From positions 248,001 through 312,000 of the forward strand of contig CANMWN010000004.1 in NCBI GenBank assembly GCA_947501625.1: DNA of 64,000 nt. The letters are read 5' to 3'. Made by a program: the position numbers and the translations under genes. Positions 5,516 through 13,332 of this stretch are shown one piece after another. Position 1 is the first letter of the stretch. Each line of letters starts with the position of its first letter. The stretch is from an uncultured Flavobacteriaceae bacterium (GTDB lineage: Bacteria; Bacteroidota; Bacteroidia; Flavobacteriales; Flavobacteriaceae). The notes under the pieces are model-generated. The model saw nothing but the letters and a program-made list of their open reading frames with translations. It did not search any database and was not told where the DNA came from.

Positions 5516-5913
5516 GGGGACGACTGGTTTTGACTGCAAGGTCAGTTAAACAGTAAGCATGTCGAGCAATGAGATAGTACTCGTAAAAATCATTTTCAAA
5601 CGTTAAACGGCGAGAATAACTACGCTTTAGCTGCATAATAATCTGAATTATAGTAAGATTTAGCCTAGTTCCGACAAGGTCGGAAAGCTTTATGTCTCAC
5701 GAAAGCCTTGGTTAACGGCGTTCAAATTAGAGGCATCGTAAAAGTTAACATAGGAATATAAAGTTCATGGTTATATTCCGAAATTAAAGTGAATAAGTTA
5801 AAAGTAGGCAGTTTTTGGTCAGCTATTAATCGAAAATTAAACAAAAACTAAGCATGTAGAAAACTCTTTAGTTGCTTGTTTGGACGAGGGTTCGAGTCCC
5901 TCCGTCTCCACTA
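5516..5913 (+). ncRNA. ssrA: Transfer-messenger RNA (tmRNA)
   Basis: The 5' end GGGGACG pairs with CGTCTCC at 5903-5909 to form the tRNA-like acceptor stem, and the T-arm GGGTTCGAGTCCC sits just before it. CCA is not encoded (CTA follows the discriminator A), so the last three bases are nominal. The tag frame runs from the resume codon GGC at 5609 and reads G-E-N-N-Y-A-L-A-A followed by two TAA stops, the tag type expected in Bacteroidota. The RNA rescues stalled ribosomes with SmpB and marks the product for degradation. The distance between the ends (about 395 bases) is normal for a one-piece tmRNA. Confidence 0.97.
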
Positions 5914-5915
5914 AA

Positions 5916-5939
5916 ATATTTTTTAATATTAAAAAATAT
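5916..5939. repeat. 24-base perfect A/T palindrome after tmRNA
   Basis: ATATTTTTTAAT followed by its exact reverse complement, beginning 6 bases after the tmRNA discriminator base. It could act as a 3'-end processing or termination signal for tmRNA on either strand. It contains only A and T, so chance is possible. Confidence 0.4.
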
Positions 5940-5943
5940 CACT

Positions 5944-5973
5944 TTCCTTTTTGATTTTATCAAAATAATTTTG
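5944..5973 (+). promoter_or_regulatory. Probable promoter of the ilv leader/operon
   Basis: TAATTTTG at 5966-5973 is an exact match to the Bacteroidota -7 element TAnnTTTG, and TTC (5944-5946) lies 19 bases upstream in place of the usual TTG. Transcription would start near 5977, about 12 bases before the first leader-peptide ATG. Confidence 0.5.
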
Positions 5974-5989
5974 AATATTTGACATCAAG

Positions 5990-6052
5990 ATGAAAAAACA
6001 AATTTTAAATATTATTTCTAACATTGTCATTGTGATTAGTTCACAACGATAG
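5990..6052 (+). CDS. ilv leader peptide 1
   Basis: A 20-codon reading frame, M-K-K-Q then I-L-N-I-I-S-N-I-V-I-V-I and S-S-Q-R, ending in TAG. Nine of 20 residues are Ile, Val or Leu, and all six Ile codons are ATT. It begins just after a candidate promoter and is followed 32 bases later by a rho-independent terminator. A GGGAA segment at the stop codon can pair with the terminator's left arm. This is the classical layout of a branched-chain amino acid attenuator leader: when charged tRNA-Ile or tRNA-Val is scarce the ribosome stalls here. The opposite strand is also open, but that frame has no recognisable content and is better explained as a shadow. Confidence 0.75.
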   Translation: MKKQILNIISNIVIVISSQR

Positions 6053-6083
6053 GGAATGATATTTTTATGAATCATAAATTTAG

Positions 6084-6111
6084 AACTTTCCCGAAACGGA
6101 AAGTTTTTTTT
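6084..6111 (+). terminator. Attenuator terminator 1 of the ilv operon
   Basis: AACTTTCC pairs with GGAAAGTT (8 bp, six-base loop CGAAAC), followed by an unbroken T run of eight including two stem bases. The competing antiterminator is GGGAA (6052-6056, at the leader stop codon) with TTCCC (6088-6092), helped by ATGAT (6056-6060) pairing with ATCAT (6071-6075). A ribosome reaching the stop codon would cover GGGAA and favour termination. Confidence 0.75.
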
Positions 6112-6124
6112 ATTTAATAGAAAT

Positions 6125-6181
6125 ATGAATAACCAATTTATCATAGCAATTATTGTCATTATTAACTTCTCATCAAGTTGA
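6125..6181 (+). CDS. ilv leader peptide 2
   Basis: An 18-codon frame, MNNQFIIAIIVIINFSSS, starting 13 bases after terminator 1 and ending in TGA. Seven of 18 residues are Ile or Val, clustered at residues 6-13, and the Ile codons include ATC and ATA as well as ATT. The stop codon overlaps the 5' half of a perfect nine-base antiterminator for the next terminator. There is no room for a separate promoter after terminator 1, so this leader is probably read on transcripts that escaped the first attenuator. The two attenuators would then act in series. Confidence 0.75.
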   Translation: MNNQFIIAIIVIINFSSS

Positions 6182-6238
6182 TACAGCAATTTATTGCCTT
6201 TAAAAAAGCCTGTATCAATTTTGATACAGGCTTTTTTT
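6178..6238 (+). terminator. Attenuator 2 (antiterminator plus terminator) of the ilv operon
   Basis: The terminator stem is GCCTGTATC (6208-6216) with GATACAGGC (6223-6231), flanked by A6 and T7 that extend the helix. The segment TTGATACAG at 6178-6186, overlapping the leader 2 stop codon, repeats the right arm and is perfectly complementary to CTGTATCAA (6210-6218), giving a mutually exclusive antiterminator. Stalling at the Ile codons leaves this segment free (read-through); completing translation covers it (termination). The 149 bases between here and ilvD hold no other structure I can support, apart from a lone TAATTTTG at 6360-6367 that could be a weak internal -7 element. Confidence 0.85.
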
Positions 6239-6387
6239 ATTCTGAATACTGTAATAATATTAACAAATACAATTGATTTTCAAGTGATTAAAAGGAATAA
6301 CACAATAGTAGAAATAAGAAAACAAATTGGAATAAGAAATTATAAAAAACACCAAACATTAATTTTGAATTTTAAACAAACAACTAA

Positions 6388-8064
6388 GTGGAATTAAATA
6401 AATATAGTAAAACTGTAACTCAAGACCCAACACAGCCTGCAGCTCAAGCAATGCTACATGCAATTGGATTAACCAAAGAAGATTTCTACAAACCAATTGT
6501 AGGAATTGCAAGTACTGGCTATGAAGGAAATCCGTGCAACATGCACCTAAATGATTTAGCCAAATTGGTAAAACAAGGAACTAAAAATGAAGACATTGTA
6601 GGCTTAATCTTTAATACAATTGGTGTAAGTGATGGAATTTCTATGGGAACTCCTGGAATGCGTTATTCATTACCATCTCGAGATATTATCGCCGATTCTA
6701 TGGAAACTGTAGTACAAGCAATGAGTTATGATGGCTTAATTACTGTTGTTGGCTGTGACAAAAATATGCCTGGAGCATTAATGGCAATGATCCGCCTAAA
6801 TCGCCCAAGCATATTGGTTTATGGAGGAACTATTGATTCTGGATGTCATAATGGGCAAAAATTAGATGTAGTTTCGGTATTTGAAGCTTGGGGAAGTAAA
6901 GTTGCTGGAACAATGAAAGAAAGTGAATATCAAAGTATTGTTGAAAAAGCGTGTCCTGGCGCTGGTGCTTGTGGAGGAATGTATACAGCAAACACTATGG
7001 CTTCGGCAATAGAAGCATTGGGAATGACATTACCATTCAATTCTTCAAATCCTGCTTTAAGTGACGCCAAAAAACAAGAATCTATCAATGCAGGAAAAGC
7101 ATTAAGAAATTTGCTAGAAAAAGATATAAAACCATCAGATATTATTACACGTAAATCTTTAGAAAATGCTGTAAGATTGGTTACAATTCTTGGAGGTTCT
7201 ACCAATGCTGTTTTACATTTTTTAGCAATTGCTAGAGCTGCGCAAATTGATTTTACATTAAAAGACTTTCAACAAATTAGTGACACAACTCCGTTCTTGG
7301 CCGATTTGAAACCAAGTGGAAAATATTTGATGGAAGATGTTCATAATGTTGGTGGAATTCCTGCCGTATTAAAATATCTTTTAAAGAAAGGTTTGTTACA
7401 TGGAGATTGTTTGACTGTAACAGGAAAAACAATTGCAGAAAATTTATTAGATGTTGATGATTTAAAAGAAGGTCAAGATGTAATCAAACCTATTGAAAAA
7501 CCTATTAAAATTTCAGGACATCTAAGAATGTTGTATGGAAATCTTGCAAGTGAAGGAAGTGTTGCAAAAATCACTGGAAAAGAAGGTTTGAAGTTTTCTG
7601 GAAAGGCAAAAGTATTTGAAGGTGAATATGAAGCAAATGATGGAATTCGTGATGGTAAAGTAGAAAAAGGAGATGTTGTCGTCATTCGCTATGAAGGACC
7701 AAAAGGCGGACCAGGAATGCCTGAAATGTTAAAACCTACAGCTGCAATTATGGGTGCTGGTTTAGGTAAAGATGTCGCTTTAATTACTGATGGTCGATTT
7801 TCTGGAGGAACTCACGGTTTTGTAGTTGGCCATATTACTCCTGAAGCTCAAGAAGGAGGTACTATTGCATTAGTTAAAAGTGGAGATATTATCACTATTG
7901 ATGCAGAAACCAACTCAATAATTTTAGAAGTTTCAGAAGAAGAATTAAAAACTAGGAAACAACAATGGAAGGCTCCAGAATTGAAATTTGAAAGAGGAAT
8001 ATTATATAAATATGCGAAAACTGTATCATCTGCTTCAAAAGGTTGTGTGACAGATGAGTTTTAA
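6388..8064 (+). CDS. ilvD: Dihydroxy-acid dehydratase
   Basis: A 558-residue cytosolic Fe-S enzyme that converts 2,3-dihydroxy-isovalerate (or -methylvalerate) to the 2-keto acid, the third common step of Val/Ile synthesis. The cluster cysteines are visible: C50 in G-N-P-C-N-M, C123 in G-C-D-K-N-M-P-G and C195 in [12 protein letters not shown]. The C-terminal domain has [10 protein letters not shown]. Length is normal for the family. An in-frame TAA lies directly before GTG, and the next Met is residue 23, inside the conserved domain, so translation must begin at GTG (M-E-L-N-K-Y-S-K). It is the first enzyme gene behind the double attenuator, with ilvB 9 bases downstream. Confidence 0.97.
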
Positions 8065-8073
8065 AAATATACT

Positions 8074-9807
8074 ATGGAGACACAAACAATAAAAACTAAA
8101 GAAACTACCGCAAAAACCACACAACGAATTTCAGGAAGCGAAGCTATTGTGAAATGCTTAATTGCCGAAGGTGTTAAAGTTTTATACGGATATCCAGGCG
8201 GAGCAATTATGCCTGTTTATGACGAACTATATAAATATCAAGACAAAATTCACCATGTCTTAACAAGACATGAACAAGGCGCTACTCATGCTGCTCAAGG
8301 ATATGCTAGAATTTCTGGTAATGTTGGTGTAGCCATGGCTACTTCTGGACCAGGAGCAACAAATTTAATTACAGGAATCGCTGATGCGCAAATAGATTCA
8401 ACACCGTTGGTGTGTATTACTGGACAAGTACCCTCACAGCTTTTAGGCTCAGATGCTTTTCAAGAAACAGACATTGTTGGAATTTCAACACCTGTAACTA
8501 AATGGAACTGTCAAATAACTAAAGCATCTGAAATTCCAGAAGCCATAGCTAAAGCATTTTATATTGCCAAAAGTGGACGACCAGGACCCGTTCTAATTGA
8601 TATTACAAAAGATGCTCAATTTGAAGAATTTGATTTTTCTTACAATAAATGTGAAGGAATAAGGAGCTATAATCCTATTCCTAAAACAGACCAAAACTCT
8701 CTTGAAGCAGCAGCAAAATTAATAAACGAGGCTAAAAAACCATTTATAGTTTGGGGTCAAGGAGTTATTTTAGGTAAAGCTGAAGTAGAATTTAAAACTT
8801 TGATTGAAAAAGCAGGAATACCCTCAGCATGGACAATTATGGGCGCTTCGGCAATCCCAACTTCACACCCTCTAAATGTTGGCATGGTTGGAATGCATGG
8901 AAATTATGCTCCAAATATTTTAACTAATGAATGTGATGTTTTAATCGCAATAGGAATGCGTTTTGATGATCGTGTAACAGGAAAGTTAGATGAATATGCT
9001 AGACAAGCCAAAGTGATTCACTTTGAAATTGATCCTGCTGAAATTGATAAAAATGTAAAGACAGATGTTGCAGTGTTAGGAGATGCTAAAACTAGTTTAA
9101 AAGCTATACTACCTTTTATAAAAACCAATTCTCATCCAGAATGGCATCAAAAATTTAAAGACTTATATCAGATTGAGTTTGACAAAGTCATTAAAAATGA
9201 TTTGCATCCAACAAAAGAAGGATTAACGATGGGAGAAGTGTTGAAAGAAATTAATAACCAGTCTAAAGGTGAAGCTGCTATAGTTAGTGATGTTGGTCAA
9301 CATCAAATGATAGCATGTCGCTATGCAGATTTTAATGTGAGTAAAAGTAATATTACTTCGGGAGGTCTAGGTACTATGGGATTTGGGCTTCCTGCTGCTA
9401 TTGGTGCTAAAATGGCAAGACCTGATCGTGAAGTTGTATCTATATGTGGTGATGGTGGTTATCAAATGACTATCCAAGAATTAGGCACAATTTTTCAGCA
9501 AAAAGCAGCCGTAAAAGTTGTTGTTCTTAACAATGAATTTCTTGGAATGGTTCGCCAATGGCAACAACTATTTTTTGACAAGCGCTATGCTTCTACAGAA
9601 ATGACCAATCCTGATTTTGTAGCAATTGCTAAAGGATATTACTTGAATGCAAAACGAGTAACCAAACGTGAAGAATTGGCAGATGCTGTTACCGAAATGA
9701 TGGCGAGTAAAGAAGCGTATTTCCTAGAAGTGTGTGTAGAAAAAGAAGATAATGTATTTCCGATGGTTCCCTCAGGAGCGTCAGTATCAGACATAAGATT
9801 AGAATAA
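8074..9807 (+). CDS. ilvB: Acetolactate synthase, large (catalytic) subunit
   Basis: A 577-residue ThDP/FAD enzyme that condenses pyruvate with pyruvate or 2-ketobutyrate, the committed step of Val/Leu/Ile synthesis. The N-terminal domain has G-Y-P-G-G-A-I-M-P-V-Y-D and the catalytic glutamate E67 in R-H-E-Q-G-A. The central domain binds FAD, and the C-terminal ThDP domain carries G-D-G-G-Y-Q-M with N-N-E-F-L-G-M-V-R-Q-W-Q near residues 462-495. Length is normal. The regulatory subunit gene follows after two bases, so the two are probably made in balanced amounts. Confidence 0.97.
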   Translation: METQTIKTKETTAKTTQRISGSEAIVKCLIAEGVKVLYGYPGGAIMPVYDELYKYQDKIHHVLTRHEQGATHAAQGYARISGNVGVAMATSGPGATNLITGIADAQIDSTPLVCITGQVPSQLLGSDAFQETDIVGISTPVTKWNCQITKASEIPEAIAKAFYIAKSGRPGPVLIDITKDAQFEEFDFSYNKCEGIRSYNPIPKTDQNSLEAAAKLINEAKKPFIVWGQGVILGKAEVEFKTLIEKAGIPSAWTIMGASAIPTSHPLNVGMVGMHGNYAPNILTNECDVLIAIGMRFDDRVTGKLDEYARQAKVIHFEIDPAEIDKNVKTDVAVLGDAKTSLKAILPFIKTNSHPEWHQKFKDLYQIEFDKVIKNDLHPTKEGLTMGEVLKEINNQSKGEAAIVSDVGQHQMIACRYADFNVSKSNITSGGLGTMGFGLPAAIGAKMARPDREVVSICGDGGYQMTIQELGTIFQQKAAVKVVVLNNEFLGMVRQWQQLFFDKRYASTEMTNPDFVAIAKGYYLNAKRVTKREELADAVTEMMASKEAYFLEVCVEKEDNVFPMVPSGASVSDIRLE

Positions 9808-9809
9808 TT

Positions 9810-10340
9810 ATGGAAAGTAAGAAAGAACAATTTACGGTTTCGGTATATACTGAAAACAACATAGGATTATTAAATAGAATTTCTGCAATATTTCAAAGAA
9901 GACACATCAATATTGAAAGTTTGAATACTTCTGCATCTGAAATTGAAGGTGTTTCTAAGTTTACAATTTTAATAAATATGACCGAAGAACAAGTAAAAAA
10001 AATTATAGGTCAAATAGAAAAACAAGTAGAAGTCATCAAAGCCTATTATCATAAAGAGGAAGACACAATCTATCAAGAATCATGTATCTTCAAAATGAAT
10101 TCTGATTTATTATTTGATGAGCGACAAATTCAAAACACTATTAAAGAAAGTAATGCTAGAATTGTAACTGTAAACAAAGAATTTTTTGTTCTAGAAAAAT
10201 CAGGCAGAAAAGAAGAAATAGAAGAACTTCACAAAGAATTAAGTGCTTTTGGAATTATGCAATTTACACGTTCTGGAAGAATTGCCGTTACCAAAGACGA
10301 AATGAAAATATCAACAATGCTCGAAGCATTCAATCACTAA
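9810..10340 (+). CDS. ilvN: Acetolactate synthase, small (regulatory) subunit
   Basis: A 176-residue protein with an N-terminal ACT domain ([24 protein letters not shown] at residues 8-31) and a C-terminal ALS small-subunit domain. It binds the large subunit, stimulates it and gives valine feedback inhibition. The conserved N-I-E-S-L-N motif after the first helix is present. Its position directly after ilvB supports the call. There is no sign of truncation. Confidence 0.95.
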
Positions 10341-10351
10341 AATTAAAAACA

Positions 10352-11854
10352 ATGTCAAATTATTTTAACTCATTATCATTAAGAAACAAATTAGAGCAAT
10401 TAGGAAAATGTAGATTCATGGAATCTTCAGAATTTAAAGATGGAGTAAACGCACTATTAGATAAAAAAATTGTAATCATTGGTTGTGGTGCTCAAGGATT
10501 GAATCAAGGTTTGAATATGAGAGATTCTGGTCTTGACATCTCTTATGCGTTAAGACAAGAAGCTATAGAAGAAAAAAGAAACTCGTTCAAAAATGCTACT
10601 TCAAACAAATTTAATGTTAGTACTTATTCTGAATTAATTCCAAATGCAGATTTAGTATTGAATTTAACACCTGATAAGCAACATACAAATGTTGTGAAAT
10701 CTGTTATGCCATTAATGAAAGAAGGTGCAACTTTATCATATTCACATGGTTTTAATATTGTTGAGGAAGGTACACAAATCCGTAAAGATATTACAGTAAT
10801 TATGGTTGCCCCTAAATGTCCGGGAACTGAAGTTCGAGAAGAATATAAACGTGGTTTTGGAGTTCCAACATTGATTGCTGTTCATCCTGAAAACGATCCT
10901 CAAAACAAAGGTTTAGCACAAGCAAAAGCTTATGCAGTAGCAACTGGCGGACATAGAGCAGGTGTATTAGAATCTTCTTTTGTTGCCGAAGTTAAGTCCG
11001 ATTTAATGGGAGAGCAAACTATTCTTTGTGGAGTTTTACAAACTGGCGCAATTTTATCATTTGACAAAATGATGGAAGAAGGAATTGAACCAAGTTATGC
11101 TGCAAAATTAATTCAGTATGGTTGGGAAACAATTACTGAAGCTTTAAAACATGGTGGTATTACTAACATGATGGACAGACTTTCTAATCCAGCAAAAATA
11201 AAAGCTTTTGAAATTTCTGAAGAATTAAAAACAATTATGCGTCCATTATTCGAAAAGCATATGGATGATATAATCTCTGGACATTTTTCAAAAACTATGA
11301 TGGAGGATTGGGCAAATGATGATAAAAATTTATTGACTTGGAGAGCTGCAACTGGTGAAACTGCATTTGAAAAAACAGAGATAACCAATCAAGAAATAAC
11401 TGAACAAGAGTATTTTGACCACGGAACATTATTAGTTGCTTTTTTAAGAGCTGGTGTAGAATTGGCTTTTGAAGTAATGACTGAAGCAGGAATAATTGAA
11501 GAGTCGGCTTATTATGAATCGCTTCATGAAACACCTTTAATTGCCAACACTATTGCACGTAAAAAATTATATGAAATGAATCGTGTAATTTCTGACACTG
11601 CTGAATATGGTTGTTACTTATTTGACCATGCTTGTAAGCCTCTGCTTAAAGATTTTATGAAAACAGTTAAAACTGATATAATTGGGAAACCATTTAGTTC
11701 AGAAAACGGAGTTGACAATCAAGAACTAATTGCTGTAAACAACGCAATAAGAAATCATCCTGTAGAAAAAATTGGCGCAAAATTAAGAGCCTCAATGACT
11801 GCAATGAAAGTAATTAAATCAGAAGAGAAATTTAATAGTCCAGTATTAATATAA
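10352..11854 (+). CDS. ilvC: Ketol-acid reductoisomerase (long, class II type)
   Basis: A 500-residue NADPH-dependent, Mg-dependent enzyme that isomerises and reduces acetolactate. The Rossmann motif [14 protein letters not shown] lies near residues 41-54, and the metal/active-site segment [12 protein letters not shown] near residues 217-228. At 500 residues it is the duplicated class II form found in Bacteroidota and enterobacteria rather than the short class I form. It lies 11 bases after ilvN and 5 bases before ilvA, so it belongs to the operon. Confidence 0.97.
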
Positions 11855-11859
11855 TAAAT

Positions 11860-13122
11860 ATGAATATTGAAACTACTTATTTTCCTGAGATCTCATCCAT
11901 TAAATCTTCAGCTGAAAAATTAAATGGCATAATAAATAAAACACCATTAACTTTCAACGATAGATATTCAAAAGAGTTTTCTTGTAATGTTTTTTTGAAG
12001 CGCGAAGATTTACAACAAGTCCGTTCTTATAAAATTCGTGGTGCTTACAATAAAATTGCTTCATTGAGTAATAATGAAAAGGCAAAAGGAATTGTTTGTG
12101 CAAGTGCAGGAAATCATGCACAAGGCGTTGCACTTTCTTGCAAACTATTAAACATTAAAGGCACTATATATATGCCCTCGCCTACTCCAAATCAAAAAAT
12201 AGAACAGGTTAAGATGTTTGGAGGAGAATTTATAGATATTGTGATTGATGGAGATACATTTGATGATGCCTATCATACTGCAATTGTGAATTGCGAAACT
12301 AAAAATAAAACCTTCATACACCCATTTAATGATCAAAAAGTGATTGAAGGTCAAGCAACAATTGGGTTAGAAATTATTGAACAATTTGACAAACCATTAG
12401 ATTATATTTTTGTTCCAGTCGGTGGCGGTGGTTTAGCAGCAGGATTGTCTTCAGTATTTAATAATTTATCACCAACTACTAAAATCATTGGTGTAGAACC
12501 AAAAGGTGCTGCATCAATGTCTACATCAATAAAAAATAATAAAAATACTACTATAGAACATATTGATAATTTTGTTGATGGCGCTGCAGTTAAAAAAGTC
12601 GGAGATTTAAATTTTAATATCTGTAAGCAAAACCTTCATAATATGATTACTGTACCTGAGGGAAAAACATGTCAAACTATCTTAGATTTATATAACAAAG
12701 AAGCAATTGTTGTAGAACCTGCAGGTGCATTAAGTATTGCTGCTTTAGACTTATTTGCTGATGAAATAAAAGACAAAAATGTAGTTTGCATTGTTAGTGG
12801 AAGTAATAACGATATAACTCGAACAGCAGAAATAAAAGAACGTGCTTTATTGCATGCTAATTTAAAGCACTATTTCATTGTAAAATTTCCTCAACGAGCT
12901 GGTGCCTTAAGAGAATTTGTTGCCGAAATTTTAGGTCCAACAGATGATATTACTCACTTTGAATATACTAAAAAAGTAAACCGAGAAAATGATGTTGCAG
13001 TAGTAGGTTTACAATTAAAATCTCCTCATGACTTAACGCCTTTGATTACTAAAATGAAAGAAAAGAATTTCTTTGGAGATTATCTAAATGACAAACCTGA
13101 TTTATTTCAGTTTTTAATTTAA
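11860..13122 (+). CDS. ilvA: Threonine dehydratase (biosynthetic)
   Basis: A 420-residue PLP enzyme that deaminates threonine to 2-ketobutyrate, the first step specific to isoleucine. The PLP lysine is K58 in S-Y-K-I-R-G-A-Y; S-A-G-N-H-A-Q-G-V and the phosphate loop V-G-G-G-G-L-A-A-G are both present. The last ~85 residues (F-I-V-K-F-P-Q-R-A-G-A-L-R-E-F) form a single ACT-like regulatory domain, shorter than the double domain of E. coli IlvA and typical of this subgroup. The operon thus covers all Ile/Val-specific steps except the final transaminase. Confidence 0.94.
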   Translation: MNIETTYFPEISSIKSSAEKLNGIINKTPLTFNDRYSKEFSCNVFLKREDLQQVRSYKIRGAYNKIASLSNNEKAKGIVCASAGNHAQGVALSCKLLNIKGTIYMPSPTPNQKIEQVKMFGGEFIDIVIDGDTFDDAYHTAIVNCETKNKTFIHPFNDQKVIEGQATIGLEIIEQFDKPLDYIFVPVGGGGLAAGLSSVFNNLSPTTKIIGVEPKGAASMSTSIKNNKNTTIEHIDNFVDGAAVKKVGDLNFNICKQNLHNMITVPEGKTCQTILDLYNKEAIVVEPAGALSIAALDLFADEIKDKNVVCIVSGSNNDITRTAEIKERALLHANLKHYFIVKFPQRAGALREFVAEILGPTDDITHFEYTKKVNRENDVAVVGLQLKSPHDLTPLITKMKEKNFFGDYLNDKPDLFQFLI

Positions 13123-13207: not shown

Positions 13208-13332
13208 ATGTTATCAAGAAAGGTGGAGGGATTAGACCCAATGAAGCCTTAGCAACCCTTTGCATTTAGCAAAGAAGGTGCTAAATTCTACTTAATTTCA
13301 GATTCATTTATCAGAAATTGGATAGATAACCA
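13208..13332 (+). promoter_or_regulatory. SAM-I (S-box) riboswitch
   Basis: The core is a close match to the S-box aptamer: P1 GTTATC (13210-13215) with GATAAC (13325-13330), then A-A-G-A-A-A-G-G-T-G-G-A-G-G-G-A, the A-A-T-G-A-A-G-C-C and A-G-C-A-A-C-C joining sequences, a P3 stem CTTTGC/GCAAAG, and A-A-G-G-T-G-C-T before P4. It should bind S-adenosylmethionine and repress the downstream methionine genes when SAM is plentiful. In the 120 bases between aptamer and metY a hairpin (CACTTT/AAAGTG near 13388-13405) could be the expression platform, but it lacks a clean T run, so I cannot say whether transcription or translation is controlled. Confidence 0.93.

Follow-up and report, generated by a model that had tools for sequence, protein, structure and literature searches.

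Two putative Ile/Val attenuators in series before the ilvDBNCA operon of an uncultured Flavobacteriaceae bacterium, and their recurrence across the family

The ilvDBNCA operon of an uncultured Flavobacteriaceae bacterium (assembly GCA_947501625.1) is very probably preceded by two ribosome-mediated attenuators, placed in series on a single transcript from a predicted promoter, P1. The analysed stretch, hereafter the window, comprises 64,000 nucleotides of contig CANMWN010000004.1 (positions 248,001 to 312,000 of the forward strand), and positions below are counted from its first letter. A sequence-only reading of the window had proposed two such attenuators, each with an Ile/Val-rich leader, and this proposal is supported by the relatives, in which the leaders are kept and both the terminators and the protector (1:2) hairpins co-vary. 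The order leader 1, terminator 1, leader 2, terminator 2 before ilvDBNCA was recovered with each of these elements where that reading had placed it; the region comprises the following parts:

5516-5913: tmRNA gene, the upstream neighbour of both attenuators, which sit between it and ilvDBNCA
5950-5981, + strand: predicted promoter P1, with TTTG at 5950-5953 and a -7-like box AATATTTG at 5974-5981 (alignment with relatives)
5990-6052, + strand: leader peptide 1, type A, ATG at 5990 and TAG at 6052, MKKQILNIISNIVIVISSQR, 20 codons, kept in relatives
6008-6063, + strand: module 1 protector (1:2) hairpin, leader codons 6008-6019 with 6052-6063 (minimum-free-energy fold)
6030-6035 with 6041-6046, + strand: inner part of the module 1 protector hairpin, TTGTGA with TCACAA
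6052-6056, + strand: module 1 antiterminator 5′ strand GGGAA, its partner being TTCCC at 6088-6092
6082-6111, + strand: intrinsic terminator 1, 10-bp stem 6082-6107, U-run 6104-6111, -9.8 kcal/mol
6125-6181, + strand: leader peptide 2, type B, ATG at 6125 and TGA at 6181, MNNQFIIAIIVIINFSSS, 18 codons, kept in relatives
6160-6183, + strand: module 2 protector (1:2) hairpin, TATTAACTT at 6160-6168 with AAGTTGATA at 6175-6183 (fold and covariation)
6178-6186, + strand: module 2 antiterminator 5′ strand TTGATACAG, overlapping the TGA stop, its partner being CTGTATCAA at 6210-6218
6202-6238, + strand: intrinsic terminator 2, 16-bp stem 6202-6237, U-run 6232-6238, -21.0 kcal/mol
6360-6367, + strand: possible internal promoter -7 box TAATTTTG, 3′ of both attenuators
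6388-8064, + strand: ilvD, dihydroxy-acid dehydratase, GTG start (TIGR00110 above cut-off)
8074-9807, + strand: ilvB, acetolactate synthase large subunit (TIGR00118 above cut-off)
9810-10340, + strand: ilvN, acetolactate synthase small subunit (TIGR00119 above cut-off)
10352-11854, + strand: ilvC, ketol-acid reductoisomerase (NF003557 above cut-off)
11860-13122, + strand: ilvA, threonine ammonia-lyase (NF006390 above cut-off)

In module 2, the antiterminator strand is the exact complement of its partner and excludes terminator 2, as had been claimed, and none of 200 shuffles was as good. The corresponding claim for module 1 stood in part: the complementarity of GGGAA and TTCCC is present, but taken alone it is no better than in shuffles (p 0.375), and in a separate folding comparison 13 of 200 shuffles fold as well. 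The module 1 antiterminator of the window is weak and draws what support it has from relatives. Terminator 1 is likewise weaker than the type A mean (-14.2 kcal/mol). The module 1 protector hairpin is part of the minimum-free-energy fold of 5985-6120, which has a z of -4.6.

Terminator 1 was also considered as the terminator of the neighbouring tmRNA gene. This reading was rejected, because modules of the same type precede ilv operons in many genomes, where they have a promoter-like box and a leader of their own. A perfect AT-rich palindrome (5916-5939, found by self-match) lies right behind the tmRNA gene and is perhaps its terminator. A search of the window with Rfam returned only the tmRNA, a SAM riboswitch (13208-13332) and tRNA at gathering score. 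In the attenuator region no family reached this score, Leu_leader, Thr_leader and the other leader families included; the weaker matches there, of which trpB and Thr_leader are the best, fall mostly on terminator 2, on both strands, and were treated as chance. The genes behind the SAM riboswitch resemble sulfur amino-acid synthesis enzymes, their roles being guessed from sequence.

The frequency of such modules was assessed with a detector that calls an Ile/Val-rich short frame 12-48 nt 5′ of a tight terminator. Among 152 real ilvD upstream regions (the window, the same genus and the same family), 66 hold a single module, 14 a double module and 72 none; the first "module" of one double (L213) was judged spurious, leaving 13. 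The same detector returned eight single modules in 3040 shuffled regions, three in 451 tiles from elsewhere in the window and three in 1994 tiles within or 3′ of the ilvD genes of relatives, and no double module in any of these sets. The double module of the window exceeds chance.

The modules fall into two main types. Type A has a leader like MKKQILNIISIIVIVIISQR and a terminator core CCTTCC/GGAAGG, and type B a terminator core CCTGTATC/GATACAGG with an antiterminator like TGATACAG, mostly across the stop codon; each is found alone in many Flavobacteriaceae. Under strict detection, the 140 regions near ilvD from the family (as a rule from one genome per genus, the window's own genome included) comprise 38 with A, 17 with B, 11 with A-B and 70 without a module, the remainder being one A-like-then-B region (L135), two of another type and the spurious pair of L213. 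The 12 same-genus regions include eight with A, one with A-B, one with B (on a cut contig that begins at terminator 1) and two without a module. In 80 named loci, a set that partly overlaps the family genomes, 15 A, six B, two A-B (Gaetbulibacter L009 and Lutibacter L036), six other-type and 49 module-free regions were counted, along with two more tandems, both made up of A-like modules (in Aquimarina L017 and the Ignavibacteriae MAG L031). One row was excluded for its length (L132, 31 bases) and five as the own copy or as partial or distant hits (L085, L096, L099-L101); G001 is represented by L095, and the set was drawn up without the upstream regions of G029, G078 and G082.

The 49 module-free named loci comprise distant Bacteroidota as well as close relatives (e.g. 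L005 and L006), and close relatives are also found among the 70 module-free family regions. Part of the latter calls arise because ilvE stands between the module and ilvD: in G186 and G103, an A-B pair lies upstream of the 1-kb cut, with ilvE between it and ilvD. The absence of modules near ilvD is thus in part an artefact. Seven module-free relatives (L006, L102, L106, L107, L113, L125 and L127) have a common GAACATCA 144-245 nt 5′ of ilvD, most of them with GAATTTA/GAGTTTA and AATTTAG/AATTTCG closer to the gene; these motifs perhaps mark another conserved promoter or leader.

Covariance models of type A (R1) and type B (R2) were run on all 189 family genomes drawn (188 genera). At E <= 0.001, R1 matches occur in 67 and R2 matches in 54 of the genomes, the search filters losing weak matches and some matches being weak or antisense to the palindrome. 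A type A module with a type B module behind it, at most 160 nt away and on the same strand, was found in at least 18 of the 189 genomes, or about one in ten genera (G000, G026, G034, G043, G072, G076, G090, G092, G095, G096, G103, G106, G107, G133, G149, G152, G165 and G186), and the reverse order in none of the 189. Twelve of the 18 had supplied rows for the models, and the six that were new to them (G026, G092, G103, G106, G165 and G186) all showed leaders and terminators on inspection. In the window's own genome, the models match best at leader 1 (4.4e-13) and leader 2 (1.5e-15); the remaining matches are weak, with E of at least 0.1, or lie antisense to terminator 2.

Three modules in series are found in G106 (L315:1355-1746), namely one A-like and two near-identical second modules, followed by an ilvE-like sequence that is broken into two frames and then by ilvD. 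The second modules match R2 with 67.9 and 65.5 bits, yet their terminators read GCCTTTCTC; their near-identity suggests that cassettes can be added by duplication. Among the congeners, L098 has both full modules. The nearest, L086 (94% IlvD identity), retains a terminator 1 near-identical to that of the window, a leader 2 that starts with TTG, and terminator 2, its contig beginning at terminator 1. An apparent sequencing adapter at the start of this contig (L086:1-40), which we take to be such from the motif itself, removes leader 1.

The type A model also led to leaders of a different composition. In all five second-place hits that were examined, Asn-rich leaders (such as MKNNNNNNNFNNPKF) were observed, at L325:1501-1548 and at the corresponding place in L326, L327, L328 and L329, with a CCTTCC terminator and a GGAAGG strand behind the stop. 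A small ORF of about 88 aa lies downstream, followed in L325, L327 and L328 by a GatA-like amidase, an assignment tested with Pfam PF01425 in L325 alone. These leaders are candidate asparagine attenuators. The window holds no Asn-rich frame of the L325 kind, and the best match to the amidase in its genome is just 31% identical.

The alignment of the relatives' ilvD upstream regions shows, in line with the check that the sequence-only reading had proposed, that the Ile/Val leaders are kept and that the terminator stems of both modules co-vary; it further reveals a co-varying 1:2 hairpin in each module that the reading had missed. For type B (36 of 37 rows, L174 left out), the terminator has six pairs changed on both sides and lies above all 500 shuffles in four of five measures, the covariation score among them. 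The type B 1:2 hairpin, in which the last leader codons pair with the stop-proximal strand, reaches a covariation score of 0.517 compared to 0.323 +/- 0.020 in shuffles (0 of 500 as high) and at most 0.161 when slid; its five pairs changed on both sides are not unusual against shuffles, but the 40 such cells are. For type A, 30 of 74 rows were left out and the stems of the remaining 44 are imperfectly aligned; in these, the terminator and the 1:2 hairpin each have a covariation score above all shuffles, and the inner 1:2 hairpin co-varies. The shuffle controls behind the covariation tests of both types, that of the type B antiterminator below included, ignore the relatedness of the rows.

The antiterminators are seen chiefly as conserved complementarity. 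In type B, 90.7% of cells are paired (36 rows) compared to at most 40.1% when slid, and the covariation does not exceed that of shuffles, the changes being mostly one-sided and G-U-keeping. Measured against shuffles, pairing of the stop-proximal strand with the terminator 5′ arm has a mean z of -2.6 in type B (p <= 0.05 in 26/37) and -1.9 in type A (39/74), and 9 of 12 modules of other types also reach p <= 0.05. Pairing across types averages -7.5 and -5.5 kcal/mol, compared to -9.1 and -12.1 kcal/mol for like with like (the margin for type A is small), suggesting that the two modules are insulated from each other.

Codon usage in the leaders bears on the signal that they would sense. Runs of three Ile/Val codons occur in 68 of 76 A leaders and 30 of 38 B leaders (counted without a control), and the rare Val codon GTC makes up 79/212 Val codons in A and 59/100 in B, compared to 11/199 in eight window genes; in the ilvD genes of relatives it accounts for 200 of 1933. 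Isoleucine is encoded by ATT alone in leader 1 and by one ATC, one ATA and five ATT codons in leader 2, in line with the first description, from which it had been proposed that leaders 1 and 2 may respond to different tRNA-Ile species. One tRNA decodes both ATT and ATC, so that only ATA could distinguish the leaders. In favour of the proposal, ATA is rarer among the pooled Ile codons of A (28/442) than of B (32/184; P 0.0001 on a slightly smaller set), a difference that within two-module regions amounts to 11/106 against 19/98 (P 0.08). Both values, however, lie below that of the window genes (75/288), which argues that neither leader is built around ATA, and no difference in Ile:Val ratio was seen between the A and the B leaders of two-module regions (P 0.49). 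Separate tRNA-Ile species therefore appear a doubtful explanation, and the simplest reading of the leader codons would be the same test made twice. A reading in which the frames encode ordinary small proteins, or lie by chance between terminators that have no connection with them, is also extremely improbable. The frames are short and AT-rich, but this reading is largely contradicted by the comparative data, namely the control rates of the detector, the covariation of the stems, the codon bias and the fact that the best matches of both models in the own genome fall at leaders 1 and 2.

Flavobacterial promoters have been described as TTTG/TAnnTTTG (PMC6847099, PMC9723704), with a weak -33 element (PMC6847099), and the boxes before first leaders fit this pattern. 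The 24 nt that precede a first leader hold a variant of the box AATATTTG in 48 of 85 cases (7.2 in shuffles), and 9 of 23 B-only leaders have one as well (1.9 expected); of these 57 boxes, 37 end 8-11 nt ahead of the start codon. With a second pattern, 55 of 111 regions with a first leader have a box, and 24 of the 55 have TTTG or TTGG 24-25 nt upstream of it. Second leaders lack the box (0/17, though just 1.5 were expected). In the 17 tandems near ilvD, terminator 1 and the start codon of leader 2 are separated by 5-45 nt, leader 2 of the window beginning 17 nt after terminator 1. There is thus no sign of a separate leader 2 promoter in these tandems, suggesting that leader 2 is transcribed only when terminator 1 is read through. 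In the other six tandems, the gap measures 11-30 nt in three and 88-155 nt in G026, G092 and G186. All six gaps lack a box variant, though the three long ones could still hold a promoter. Both attenuators of the window would, on these grounds, lie on one transcript.

As the G sits at -5 in the promoters of PMC6847099, transcription from P1 is expected to start at about 5986, which would give leader 1 a 5′ UTR of about 4 nt; a box placed so closely before the first leader implies that the leader would begin almost at the RNA 5′ end. Leaderless transcripts make up 5.5% in F. psychrophilum (PMC9723704), and 87% of leaders in F. johnsoniae are longer than 10 nt (PMC6847099). A near-leaderless start is as such a minority habit in flavobacteria, which counts against the model.

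The sequence-only reading further held that RNA polymerase must pass both attenuators. This would apply only to transcripts from P1, and the box TAATTTTG may start transcripts that pass neither. TAnnTTTG is enriched within 75 nt of ilvD, both in regions with modules (38/108, compared to 5.5 in shuffles) and in module-free regions (35/81, compared to about 5), and together with the box in the window this suggests that part of the transcription may avoid both attenuators. Taken further, the operon could be driven mainly from a promoter just 5′ of ilvD, the attenuators tuning a minor upstream transcript. We consider this unlikely, since the box in the window has no well-placed -33 element, many type-A-only relatives show no such box, and the lasting conservation of both modules speaks for the importance of the upstream transcript.

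For the P1 transcript, a course of events can be proposed in which leader translation, stalling and termination are inferred from the arrangement. A ribosome would load on leader 1 nearly at the RNA 5′ end. When Ile and Val are plentiful, it would reach the leader 1 stop and cover the antiterminator strand, so that terminator 1 forms. When charged tRNA-Ile or tRNA-Val is scarce, it would stall in the Ile/Val run and thereby open the 1:2 hairpin, freeing GGGAA to pair with the 5′ arm of terminator 1, and RNA polymerase would continue. Module 2 would repeat the test with its own 1:2, 2:3 and 3:4 structures. Transcription of ilvDBNCA from P1 would occur only when both modules let the polymerase through, and the read-through probabilities would multiply, which may sharpen the response, as the sequence-only reading had proposed.

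The tandem is scattered over the IlvD tree. On this quick tree of 151 rows, which has many weak forks and was built without G026, G092, G103, G106, G165 and L098, the tandem label requires 11 changes for 16 rows, at least six of them forced by well-supported branches. This scatter suggests that the series has been assembled or reduced repeatedly, a history that would fit one origin of the tandem as well as several. The ilvD gene of the window is of a Winogradskyella-like type, 94% identical to that of Winogradskyella psychrotolerans, whereas 10 of the 12 congeners in which a match was found have a gene 68-73% identical to it. This pattern suggests that genera may have exchanged the operon together with its tandem, and that the operon of the window was possibly replaced by transfer.

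The same scatter implies that single modules are often gained or lost, and would suit a reading in which only module 2 regulates, module 1 being a decaying or weak remnant and the tandem a lineage state without joint function. The modest strength of terminator 1 and the module 1 antiterminator of just 5 bp point the same way. This reading is nonetheless distinctly unlikely, as leader 1 and its stem are intact, congeners retain both full modules (L098) or a near-identical terminator 1 (L086), and type A stands alone before ilvD in 38 of 140 family regions. Against it, two working attenuators in series are the preferred reading. A broader and only tentative possibility, which we rate at somewhat below even, is that A and B are interchangeable cassettes, stacked in fixed order one, two or three deep as repeated independent starvation tests. 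If so, stacking would provide proofreading against false read-through from the noise of a single ribosome, and would multiply the dynamic range.

Single ribosome-mediated attenuators are classical at the ilv and leu operons of enterobacteria (ilvGMEDA, leu), the leaders of which carry ribosome-binding sites, whereas leader 1 of the window would start almost at the 5′ end. A single attenuator of this kind has also been described at Corynebacterium ilvBNC (PMC11857589). The window resembles these systems in its leaders rich in the regulating amino acids, its alternative RNA structures and its terminators before a biosynthetic operon, but has two attenuators in series instead of one. Tandem attenuators are described in Salmonella mgtCBR, where two short ORFs in one leader, as in the window, each control elongation into the operon; these sense two different signals, ATP and proline, and act without hairpins resembling intrinsic terminators (PMC3641672), whereas both leaders of the window are Ile/Val-rich and each has an intrinsic terminator. 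At Bacillus clausii metE, tandem riboswitches (an example given in PMC3641672) likewise place two terminator-controlling sensors in series on one leader, but there the RNA senses two different ligands directly, without the leader peptides of the window.

Within the same family, leader-peptide attenuation has been suspected before amino-acid operons of Flavobacterium psychrophilum (PMC9723704), with the same inferred mechanism, in passages that name no operon and no tandem. In the same phylum, the long 5′ UTR of Bacteroides thetaiotaomicron BT_4401 has several short frames in one leader, as in the window, reminiscent of leader-peptide attenuation (PMC7366714); that gene is of unknown function, its frames were left for validation, and the passage on it makes no mention of terminators. 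In Streptomyces coelicolor, an ilvB leader of similar appearance failed to behave as an attenuator when its codons were changed (PMC1262725), a reminder that sequence alone can mislead. The present arrangement was not found in the open-licence literature on tandem or Bacteroidota ilv attenuators (subscription journals lay outside this scope), in agreement with the earlier statement that no described tandem peptide attenuator was known in Bacteroidota. What is new here is a putative series of same-signal attenuators at an amino-acid operon, recurring across the family.

The shaping of dose responses by stacked switches has been discussed mainly for tandem riboswitches, and serial attenuation by the same signal would show that bacteria stack leader-peptide switches for this end as well. 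Genera with A only, B only, A-B or three modules before homologous operons constitute a natural comparison series, in which read-through could be measured directly against module number. Flavobacteria furthermore gain a definable attenuator family with searchable models.
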